Part shown: piece by piece, positions 47,792-50,382 of the stretch
Layout of the letters: each line of letters begins with the position of its first letter
How positions within the stretch are numbered: the stretch's first letter is position 1
Origin: Planctomycetota bacterium
GTDB taxonomy: Bacteria > Planctomycetota > Planctomycetia > Pirellulales > Pirellulaceae
DNA: 64,000 nucleotides
Direction of reading: 5' to 3'
NCBI GenBank assembly: GCA_014381825.1
Contig: JACNKX010000042.1
Span: 1 to 64,000 of the forward strand
The notes under the pieces: generated by a model
Database searches by the model: none
What the model saw: the letters and a program-made list of their open reading frames with translations, nothing else
What the model was told of the DNA's origin: nothing
Made by a program: the position numbers and the translations under genes

Positions 47792-49624
47792 ATGGAAGAC
47801 ACTCTTAACACCATCGTCAGTGGTGATTGTATCGCGGGAATGAACGCTTTGCCTGAGGGCAGCGTCGACCTTGCCTTTGCCGATCCGCCGTTCAACATCG
47901 GTTACGAATACGACGTCTACGATGACAAGCTGGAACGTGACCAGTACCTGTCGTGGTCGCGTGACTGGATCTCGGCGGTTCATCGTATCCTGAAGAGTGA
48001 CGGAGTGTTCTGGCTGGCGATCGGTGACGAATATGCAGCCCAGTTGAAATTGGCGAGTCAAGACATCGGTTTTCACTGTCGCAGCTGGGTTATCTGGTAC
48101 TACACATTCGGCGTGAACTGTACGCAGAAGTTCAGCCGATCCCATGCCCACTTGTTCCACTTCGTGAAAGACCCACAGAACTTTACATTCCGCGCCGACG
48201 ATATGGAAAACCGTATTCCTTCCGCGCGACAACTTGTCTACAACGACAAGCGAGCCAACTCGAAGGGCCGTCTGCCTGATGATACCTGGATCATCCGACC
48301 GGCTGATGTTGTCGGTGAGATGATCGATGACGAAGGTTTGTGGTCACCTGACGATCTCGCGCCACCGAGCGATAACGATCAAACCTGGACTCTCCGCCCA
48401 CAAGATCTTGACGCTTGCTTCAAGCCAAGCGAAGACACGTGGTACTTCCCTCGCGTTGCGGGCACATTCAAGGAACGCGCCGGCTTTCATGGTTGTCAGA
48501 TGCCAGAACAGTTACTCGGTCGCATCATTCGTTATTGCTCCAACGACGGTGAAGTTGTTCTCGATCCCTTCGCGGGCAGCGCGACCACACTTGCCGTTGC
48601 GAAGAAGCTTGGCCGGAAATACCTCGGATTTGATATCTCGGATGAGTATATCAAGCATGGTACTACTCGGTTGGAGTCGATACGAGTTGGTGATCCATTG
48701 GACGGCTCATCTGAACCGTTGGTAAGCGCTCCCAAGACGGGAGCGAAGTCTAAGTCAAAATTGAAGCAAATCGCTGCTGCAACAGCCGGTGACGATATTA
48801 CGGAACGAAAGGTAACTGATCGGCGATTCACTGAAGCACAGTTGGAGCTAACGCTCCTAGGCGTGAAGGAAGCGTTTCGGCGGTCACACGAAGGCTTCTC
48901 TGCGGATTTCGTTGTCGCAGATCCGAATCTCAATTCTTCATTCTCGTCCGCATGTGATCGACTCGGAATCGTCGGTGGAATTCAAAGCTGGAACAAGTTG
49001 CTGTTTCGACTTCGGAAGTCTGGCAAGTTGGCTGACATCGAAACGACTCACAGATTCTCCGTCTCGTGGTCTGACTGCGACGATTACCTGTTCGCGAGCG
49101 AAATCGCGTTAGAGATCTTGTTGGAGAATGGTCAGGCAAAGAGCCTTGATGACATACTCTGTCAACCCGAAGTTGCTGGTGAGTTTGACGCGATTGCTAG
49201 CCGTTTTGCTCCGGGGTATAAGCCGGTTGAGTACCGCTGGGCTGCCTTGAAACTCAGAAAGCAGGCCAAGCTTGCCAGGAGTCGGGCGGGCGTATTCAAG
49301 AGTTTAAAGATCGAGCGTTTCGGGAAACGTGTTTCAATCGATGATCTTGACGAGTTGGACCTGCCGGAAGAACGTGGTGTCTATCTTGTTAGTGGTGGCA
49401 AGTCGAAGAATCTGTATGCTGGTGAAACGCTCAATCTTCGTACTCGGCTTTCGCGACAGTTTGGTGATCCTCAGCTTGAAGAGTGGCGTAAACAGTCCAA
49501 AAAGGTAAAGGTGCAAGCATTTCGTCTCGCTTCGCCGGCATCAGAGATGCTGGCAATGCAAAGCTGCTTAATCACGGAGTACCACCCAAAGCTAAACTTC
49601 CGGGAGCTCCGTTCTGCTATATGA
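47792..49624 (+). CDS. Beta-class DNA methyltransferase fused to GIY-YIG-like domain
   Basis: N-terminal ~310 residues form an N4/N6 amino-methyltransferase: motif IV DPPF at 31-34 comes before the AdoMet motif DPFAGSATT near 258, i.e. beta-class order. The middle region has two copies of a ~40-residue unit (VVADPNLNSSF..., ILCQPEVAGEF... ending LRK), then a GIY-YIG nuclease-like domain: GVY at 529-531, YAG at 542-544, NLRTRL. The metal-binding Glu position is Q590 (AMQSCLI), so this nuclease copy may be inactive. The start at 47792 follows CAGGAG. The stop overlaps the next gene as ATGA. Confidence 0.85.
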   Translation: MEDTLNTIVSGDCIAGMNALPEGSVDLAFADPPFNIGYEYDVYDDKLERDQYLSWSRDWISAVHRILKSDGVFWLAIGDEYAAQLKLASQDIGFHCRSWVIWYYTFGVNCTQKFSRSHAHLFHFVKDPQNFTFRADDMENRIPSARQLVYNDKRANSKGRLPDDTWIIRPADVVGEMIDDEGLWSPDDLAPPSDNDQTWTLRPQDLDACFKPSEDTWYFPRVAGTFKERAGFHGCQMPEQLLGRIIRYCSNDGEVVLDPFAGSATTLAVAKKLGRKYLGFDISDEYIKHGTTRLESIRVGDPLDGSSEPLVSAPKTGAKSKSKLKQIAAATAGDDITERKVTDRRFTEAQLELTLLGVKEAFRRSHEGFSADFVVADPNLNSSFSSACDRLGIVGGIQSWNKLLFRLRKSGKLADIETTHRFSVSWSDCDDYLFASEIALEILLENGQAKSLDDILCQPEVAGEFDAIASRFAPGYKPVEYRWAALKLRKQAKLARSRAGVFKSLKIERFGKRVSIDDLDELDLPEERGVYLVSGGKSKNLYAGETLNLRTRLSRQFGDPQLEEWRKQSKKVKVQAFRLASPASEMLAMQSCLITEYHPKLNFRELRSAI

Positions 49625-50382
49625 GCCAGCCGCCGCTGGAAGCAGCGTACGACGCGTCACGGGTCGACTATCCTGCTGATCGCGTAGTTGCCGATCCAGA
49701 TCTGAACGCTATCTTTCTGGCAGAGTGTCGGCGACGCGGATTGCAAGATCCGCCCGCATTGCTGAATCGGTCACTGCTCAACTTGCGAAAAGCTGGTCGC
49801 TTGAGTGGTCGGCCTCGATCAAAACGGACACACTTTAACAACGAAGACGAGTATCGCTTTGCCTCTGAAATGGCGGCACGGTTTCTCGAACGCCGAGAAG
49901 GGATAAGTCTCGACAATGTGTTGTGTGACCCTGGACTGGCGAGTGAGTTTGATCGACGAGCTGCGGACATTGCTCCGGGGTTTTCGTCATTGCAGTATCG
50001 TTGGGCAGCACTAAATCTCAGAAAGGCGAAGAAGTTTGCGCCGGAAGTAGCTTCTCGAATCGCACCACCAATTGCGGTCTATAAATATCGTGCCGCGACG
50101 CTTGAGCTAAGTGACTTGCCAACGGAACAAGGTTTGTACTTGTTGTTTGCAAACGCTCAATTGCTATACGTTGGGGAAGCTGAGAACTTGAGGATCCGGA
50201 TCAAAAAGCACCTTGATCACTCCGACAACAAGGGGTTTGCTCGCTGGTTATGGGAGTTTGGGACCGATGAGTTGCACATTGAAGTGCAAGTCCTTGCGGC
50301 TGACACAGAGCGGAGAGTGCGAAAGGCATTGGAACTGGAATTGATTCGATCTCGTGAACCGATGTTCAACGTTAAGAGATAG
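49621..50382 (+). CDS. Stand-alone GIY-YIG nuclease-like paralogue of the fusion C-terminus
   Basis: Overlaps the fusion gene by four bases (ATGA). It repeats the C-terminal half of that gene without the methyltransferase: two ~40-residue units (VVADPDLNAIFLAEC, VLCDPGLASEFD) each ending LRKA, then GIY-YIG: GLY at 171-173, YVG at 183-185, NLRIRIKKHL and the metal Glu E238 in ALELELIRSREPMFN. All key residues for catalysis appear present. It looks like the active nuclease of a two-protein restriction-modification or defence unit (inference). Convergent with a DUF1501 gene. Confidence 0.82.
   Translation: MSQPPLEAAYDASRVDYPADRVVADPDLNAIFLAECRRRGLQDPPALLNRSLLNLRKAGRLSGRPRSKRTHFNNEDEYRFASEMAARFLERREGISLDNVLCDPGLASEFDRRAADIAPGFSSLQYRWAALNLRKAKKFAPEVASRIAPPIAVYKYRAATLELSDLPTEQGLYLLFANAQLLYVGEAENLRIRIKKHLDHSDNKGFARWLWEFGTDELHIEVQVLAADTERRVRKALELELIRSREPMFNVKR

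Follow-up and report, generated by a model that had tools for sequence, protein, structure and literature searches.

Type II restriction-modification systems of the GIY-YIG kind, such as Eco29kI, Cfr42I and Hpy188I, consist of a methyltransferase and a GIY-YIG nuclease, and R.Eco29kI has an active site of the form Y/Y/R/H/E/N (PMC1952068; this and the other papers cited were available in part, and statements about them are confined to those parts). We describe a gene pair of similar composition from a Planctomycetota bacterium (Pirellulaceae; assembly GCA_014381825.1), located within positions 1 to 64,000 of contig JACNKX010000042.1. We refer to this 64,000-nucleotide (nt) stretch as the window and number all positions from its first letter. 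Gene 1 (47792-49624, plus strand, 610 amino acids [aa]) encodes a DNA methyltransferase fused to tandem helical repeats and a pseudo-GIY-YIG domain. Gene 2 (49621-50382, plus strand, 253 aa) encodes a free copy of the repeats and GIY-YIG domain, here called the module, and is a predicted active nuclease. Like the Type II systems above, the pair combines a methyltransferase with a nuclease that has the R.Eco29kI type of active site, but in the planctomycete pair tandem helical units are part of the nuclease, and the methyltransferase bears the entire nuclease protein a second time, in a putatively dead form. The gene 2 model resembles R.Eco29kI structurally over residues 140 to 252 only.

A nuclease and a methyltransferase are joined in one chain in the engineered enzyme RM.Eco29kI (PMC3039593) and in Type IIC enzymes (PMC4081073). 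RM.Eco29kI keeps both activities, whereas in the planctomycete pair the fused nuclease is predicted to be dead, with the live copy encoded separately by gene 2. In Lactobacillales, an N-terminal COG4123 methyltransferase is fused to a GIY-YIG domain, and elsewhere the two are neighboring genes (PMC1564403). Those proteins have an Slx1-type GIY-YIG domain and a methyltransferase from another family, and the available part of the paper says nothing of helical repeats or of a dead/live pair. The type IV enzymes Ahi29725I and Apa233I, which depend on N6-methyladenine, combine a winged helix (wH) with GIY-YIG (PMC11037411), but they cut methylated DNA, whereas here two weakly winged-helix-like tandem units stand beside a methyltransferase. 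In the DnmA-YeeB-YeeC locus of Bacillus subtilis, an adenine methyltransferase shares a conserved cluster with a GIY-YIG-type protein (PMC9973331), but this is a three-gene cluster with a helicase, and no fusion is mentioned in the available part of the source. The authors of that work suggest that such methyltransferases can outlast a defunct defense system (PMC9973331).

Type IIC enzymes have both activities in one polypeptide, and gene 1, whose fused domain lacks the catalytic Glu, is predicted to fall outside this class. Type IIT is defined by a catalytic site in each of two different subunits or domains (PMC4081073); here an intact site is predicted in the free module only. As for the linkage and co-inheritance expected of Type II systems, the two genes are linked at nine loci, yet most fusions have no linked nuclease, and tree congruence stands at p 0.09-0.11. 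A search of titles and abstracts in the open-access literature, with subscription papers and REBASE outside its scope, found no matching system described. Within that literature, the claim of a first-pass annotation, made from the letters of the window, that the layout matches no named restriction-modification type still stands. In the available parts of the papers on the related systems above, there is likewise no account of a methyltransferase that has a dead nuclease copy next to a live one. The arrangement seems to be a DNA marking-and-cutting system of a form not yet described.

Active sites of the fused and free modules

The pseudo-GIY-YIG domain of gene 1 (49349-49606, plus strand, aa 520-605) keeps the G-V-Y and Y-A-G motifs, the Arg and the Asn. 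The catalytic Glu is replaced by Gln590 (codon 49559-49561), and the active-site His position is not His. When compared alone with the Pfam GIY-YIG family, the C-terminus of gene 1 gave a weak match (0.06, under the curated cut-off). In the structure model of gene 1 the fused domain retains the strand and helix order, that is, the fold is predicted to be kept.

We scored the positions equivalent to R.Eco29kI Y49, Y76, R104, H108, E142 and N154 in the module copies from Planctomycetia genomes and in L003, L004 and L041. All six residues are intact in none of 81 fused copies versus all eight paired free copies whose nuclease domain is complete; the ninth paired free copy (L117) is cut short. The position of the metal-binding Glu is occupied in the fused copies by Gln (42), Arg (13), Lys (12), Trp (4), Ala (2), Val (1) or Cys (1) and is gapped in 6. 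No fused copy has the Glu, as judged by alignment for 75 and by eye for the six gapped rows; at their printed ends, the residue 12 places ahead of the terminal Asn position is never Glu. Most fused copies retain both Tyr residues and the Asn. Among the other 35 module open reading frames (ORFs), 23 have the Glu and 17 have all six residues.

In R.Eco29kI, the E142A change abolishes cleavage while DNA binding remains robust (PMC1952068), and E142Q was deposited as an inactive variant (title of PDB 3mx4). Even R.Hpy188I, with its unusual active site, has the Glu (E149; PMC2630997). With no catalytic Glu in any of the 81 fused copies we examined, the GIY-YIG domain in the fusion is probably dead. 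The first-pass annotation had placed a methyltransferase and a nuclease in one polypeptide; the fusion is there, and the second activity in that chain is probably not.

The nuclease domain of gene 2 (50101-50370, plus strand, aa 161-250) has Y173, Y183, R193, H197, E238 and N250. Its Pfam GIY-YIG match is just over the cut-off (1e-4). When PDB sequences were searched with a profile built from 67 relatives, UvrC GIY-YIG domains were recovered at 6.5e-12. For gene 2, AlphaFold2 gave a model with a mean predicted local distance difference test score (pLDDT) of 91.4, and a fold search with its C-terminal part returned UvrC (Z 10.2), T4 EndoII (Z 9.8) and R.Eco29kI (Z 7.5). By sequence, fold and the six active-site residues, gene 2 belongs to the GIY-YIG nuclease superfamily. 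With PADLOC, gene 2 gave only weak matches in the GIY-YIG region (PDC-S14, 1.5e-4; UzuA, 2.6e-4). The region common to the two proteins is not a chance similarity, because they align with 38% identity over 200 residues at an expectation value (E) of 7e-31. The stop of gene 1 and the start of gene 2 overlap in ATGA at exactly 49621-49624 on the plus strand, from which we infer translational coupling. Both observations agree with the earlier description of gene 2 as an overlapping free copy of the repeats and nuclease.

A fusion with a free copy directly downstream occurs at nine loci. The junction is ATGA in five pairs, TTGA in one and a one-base overlap (TGATG or TAATG) in two; in the remaining pair (L102) the nearest ATG lies 6 nt past the gene 1 stop. 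The genes thus overlap or nearly touch in 9/9 pairs. In a tree of 123 module copies, from which L004 and one L163 fragment were excluded, the 84 fused copies form one group (support 0.86) and the nine paired free copies another (0.88). Sixteen solo copies make up a third group (1.0), sister to the paired free copies (0.98). The 84 fused copies are the 81 above plus those at L089, L106 and L162, which lie inside the fusion clade in ORFs cut by contig ends. Across the eight genomes common to both sets, the nuclease domains of the free copies have an average pairwise identity of 0.570 and those of the fused copies 0.286, the free value being higher in 28/28 genome pairs. The gap is smaller for the two repeats (0.501 and 0.620 free, 0.426 and 0.519 fused). 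Judging by these sequence comparisons, the free copy is under constraint, as a conserved separate lineage.

The methyltransferase and the tandem repeats

The beta-class N6/N4 methyltransferase domain of gene 1 (47792-48691, plus strand, aa 1-300) has ADPPFN (aa 30-35) preceding DPFAGSAT (aa 258-265), with the recognition region between them, which is the beta-class motif order (DPP[YF], recognition region, D-P-F-x-G). Residues 25 to 288 match Pfam N6_N4_Mtase at 5.5e-51, and gene 1 matches the CcrM structure at 7.8e-30. The start of gene 1 is consistent with the N-termini of its relatives (MDEFLN or MDDFLN), and the DPP and DPF-x-G positions are invariant across a 37-row alignment. PADLOC returned only general methyltransferase models for gene 1.

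The best-conserved part of the fusion is the putative target-recognition region (48182-48487, plus strand, aa 131-232). Its mean pairwise identity among 37 fusions is 0.73, compared with 0.66-0.68 for the catalytic flanks, 0.43-0.48 for the repeats and 0.29 for the fused GIY-YIG domain. Restriction-modification specificity usually diversifies, unlike the conserved recognition region here. That this region is the most conserved across the class suggests one common methylation target for the fusions of Planctomycetia. In the gene 1 model (pLDDT 78.1), residues 138 to 232 are mostly unreliable. About 30 residues of the recognition region (48287-48394, around aa 166-201) are an optional insert, present in 12/37 fusions.

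Two tandem helical units lie in gene 1 at 48854-49291 (plus strand, aa 355-500) and two in gene 2 at 49627-50046 (plus strand, aa 3-142), the latter delimited by the AlphaFold2 model and repeat comparison. Comparison of unit 1 with unit 2 by hhalign gave a probability of 97.9 and E 6e-13, which makes this a true tandem repeat. Together with the Pfam match of the methyltransferase domain and the UvrC profile match, this bears out the first-pass description of gene 1 as a beta-class methyltransferase with repeats and a GIY-YIG domain. The N-terminal units of gene 2 have four helices each. A fold search with the repeat part gave no clear match; helix-turn-helix (HTH) and winged-helix proteins appeared at Z 3.3-5.6, including weak matches of the gene 2 units to the DNA-binding folds of Fur (Z 5.6) and an Lrp-like protein (Z 4.0). 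Similarities at this level may reflect a common arrangement only, and it is in this weak structural sense that we call the units of gene 1 HTH- or winged-helix-like. The first-pass annotation had allowed for a known recognition domain in this region. Pfam has no family over the gene 2 repeats nor consistently in the members scanned: across 67 relatives, there was no recurring non-GIY-YIG family beyond DUF7508 (weak, 11 members) and DUF123 (2 members).

The immediate neighbors of the pair are all on the minus strand, with a DUF6807 protein upstream and DUF1501 and PSD1/PSCyt proteins downstream. The guanine-plus-cytosine content of the pair (0.51-0.53) is slightly below that of its surroundings (0.54-0.59), which is weak evidence of a separate origin. 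In a search of the source genome to E 1, gene 1 and gene 2 were the only module copies.

Distribution of the fusion and of other module copies

We scanned 397 Planctomycetia genomes and then read the loci individually. Because the module was the seed of the scan, methyltransferases that lack it are uncounted, and presence counts are lower bounds, up to six first-look candidates having been scored per genome. Stretches were fetched for all listed places to E 5.0e-22, apart from the last of these, G539; the weaker fragments G602:C367 and G575 were omitted. The fusion is present in 83/397 genomes, and eight of these 83 have a linked free copy; the ninth pair (L003) is on a named planctomycete contig. 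Beyond the class, a phylum-wide scan with gene 2 gave E below 1e-15 in 13/392 genomes, one of them outside Planctomycetia; weaker matches were mostly limited to the GIY-YIG part. A second draw from the phylum gave 7/294 genomes, all Planctomycetia. A search of gene 2 against genome contigs, our sole whole-genome search beyond the phylum, found two loci, both planctomycete.

We looked for traces of a partner where the fusion stands alone. A tblastn search with four free proteins against 15 fusion-only stretches found no free-gene remnant better than E 0.5 outside known copies, and neither was there one in the gap at L036, a fusion with similar DUF1501/DUF1553-type genes on either side. An all-against-all comparison of ORFs from the 15 stretches revealed no common partner gene; the matches were DUF1501/DUF1553-type genes, a few pairwise matches and shadow ORFs. 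An ORF of about 125 aa is common to L043, L004 and L162, and the L043 copy has no Pfam match.

All six active-site residues are present in 16/16 solo copies, although the gene of the L163 copy is split between two frames. The solo-copy neighbors that were searched with Pfam, a part of the total, belong to metabolic or structural families or to none, with no methyltransferase among them. Across the 397 genomes, 6 have both the fusion and an unlinked solo nuclease, 77 the fusion only, 9 the solo nuclease only and 305 neither, and the association is not significant (Fisher p 0.097). Six solo modules with the six residues (L147, L148, L150, L152, L155, L157) each lie near a 2-hydroxyacid dehydrogenase-like gene, as tested with Pfam in 2/6; possibly they are a chromosomal nuclease outside restriction-modification. 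At L004:839-2448, a free-type copy with a truncated start directly follows transposase-like ORFs, as judged by eye; an insertion element may have disrupted the gene.

The module also occurs beside or within other DNA-modification enzymes. Eight module ORFs (L134, L135, L137, L145, L146, L156, L168, L175) adjoin a common neighbor, a D12-class methyltransferase in 2/2 tested with Pfam, and have Glu at the catalytic position in three cases and another residue in five. At L164:2811-5294, a Type I specificity subunit (Methylase_S, 2.1e-31) carries a C-terminal repeat plus GIY-YIG module with Ala in place of the Glu; its gene is directly after an HsdR-like gene. L171:4314-7652 (1113 aa) and L172:1302-6188 (1629 aa) encode Eco57I-like methylases ending in the module, with an incomplete GIY-YIG match. 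The L167 module ORF is just upstream of a separate beta-class methyltransferase ORF, and the open frame overlaps it. Small ORFs of about 120 to 280 aa are common to L134, L135, L137, L145 and L146 and, as another group, to L154, L156, L167, L168 and L175; Pfam gave no match for the four searched (L134, L137, L154, L167).

Six viral contigs (L177-L182) encode a gene 1-like methyltransferase without the module. In the recognition region, these share 0.49-0.82 identity with gene 1 over 48-77 aligned residues, as against 0.34 for YhdJ of an E. coli plasmid. A four-row profile of the free protein found no relative on the viral contigs, and gene 2 gave three weak GIY-YIG matches among phages. Among the matches listed for viral structure models, the named ones were largely GIY-YIG proteins or endonucleases. 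Searched against plasmids, gene 1 matched 2172 records, none over 80% of the protein; the best 20 of the 2172 cover 43-53%, in the methyltransferase part. Gene 2 matched one plasmid record, in the GIY-YIG part.

Readings of the gene pair

We favor, at about an even chance, the reading that the gene pair is a restriction-modification-like unit, with gene 2 doing the cutting and the methyltransferase retaining a module that is dead. In its favor are the loss of active-site residues in the fused copies against their retention in the paired free ones, the loss of cleavage but not of binding in R.Eco29kI E142A, the higher conservation of the free nuclease domain, the separate clades of free and fused copies, and the overlap or near contact of the genes in 9/9 pairs. 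Gene 1 would methylate DNA, by homology of its beta-class domain and presumably at N6 of adenine, and its dead module would serve as a DNA-binding or dimerizing scaffold. Gene 2, whose translation would be coupled to that of gene 1, would be the cutting subunit, the same module with the six known active-site residues. This free subunit would cut DNA that lacks the gene 1 mark, alone or together with the dead module, the repeats would read DNA, and the two proteins may contact each other. Fusions that have no linked nuclease probably serve as solitary methyltransferases of fixed specificity. Viral methyltransferases with a similar recognition region are expected if phages need the gene 1 mark, and we count them in favor of a restriction-modification-like unit; they would be compatible with a threat of restriction there, but also with the copying of a regulatory mark.

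Several results weigh against a restriction-modification-like unit. At 75/84 fused copies there is no linked free copy, with at least 800 nt of downstream sequence in hand for 72. None of the 16 solo copies, the closest relatives of the paired nuclease, has a beta-class methyltransferase in the fetched stretch, and a nuclease that lives without a methyltransferase need not be a restriction enzyme. Tree congruence, tested with one of the nine free copies truncated, is not significant, either for the module tree (p 0.115) or for the methyltransferase versus the free gene (p 0.093). The first-pass annotation had also proposed that the shared repeats let both proteins read the same DNA site. Co-variation of the fused and free repeats has so far lent this no support: they are slightly less alike within a locus (identity 0.400) than across loci (0.422; permutation p 0.995). 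A conserved site would equally predict no excess of similarity within loci.

These results leave room for a different division of labor, the main rival, which we regard as plausible though less likely. The fusion could be a stand-alone methyltransferase of fixed specificity, regulatory or housekeeping-like as CcrM is, with the dead module as a DNA-binding tail, and gene 2 could be an occasional neighbor, a nuclease that has its own task in repair or in structure-specific or modification-dependent cutting. The lack of a linked nuclease at most fused copies, the strong conservation of the recognition region, the absence of a linked beta-class methyltransferase from the nearest relatives of gene 2 and the nonsignificant association of the fusion with unlinked solo nucleases in the 397 genomes all favor this. 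The tandem HTH- or winged-helix-like units with GIY-YIG also recall the wH-GIY-YIG cutters of N6-methyladenine DNA (PMC11037411). However, the paired free copies form one clade and always lie directly downstream of the fusion in 9/9 pairs, and their single clade and their overlap or near-overlap with it argue for a joint function where pairs occur. That gene 1 is instead a Type IIC-like enzyme with both activities, gene 2 being a further nuclease subunit, strikes us as highly improbable. The fusion architecture, the predicted retention of the GIY-YIG fold and the two Tyr and Asn in most copies would suit such an enzyme, and a Gln-for-Glu variant is reported for BtgZI, a Type IIC enzyme, in its PD-D/EXK domain, which is unrelated (PMC4081073). 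Against this stand the 81 fused copies, none with the Glu or the full six residues, and the fast divergence of the fused domain. Adjacency and 38% identity could also suggest that gene 2 arose recently by tandem duplication of the gene 1 end and is now functionless and decaying, a reading to which we give almost no credence. Pairs recur at nine loci, and because free and fused copies form separate clades, gene 2 is not a local duplicate of gene 1. The higher conservation of the free copies and their intact active sites complete the case, and we consider a decaying duplicate, which the first-pass annotation had named as a way for its proposal to fail, to be contradicted.

A more far-reaching version of the restriction-modification-like unit would be a new layout. 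In it, the pseudo-GIY-YIG domain pairs with the live subunit on DNA, so that one complex decides between methylation and cutting of one or two strands, and the module, in many cases without its Glu, is a general pseudonuclease adaptor for planctomycete DNA-modification enzymes, such as the Type I specificity subunit, the Eco57I-like methylases and the D12-class neighbor. We think this unlikely. If the favored reading of a methyltransferase with a dead module and a cutting gene 2 is true, a dead restriction-type nuclease rides on a methyltransferase in about one-fifth of the Planctomycetia genomes sampled, with a live copy in only some of them. The family would then offer a natural series from restriction-modification to solitary methyltransferase, in which one could ask what use remains for a dead nuclease and whether a pseudonuclease steers DNA modification.

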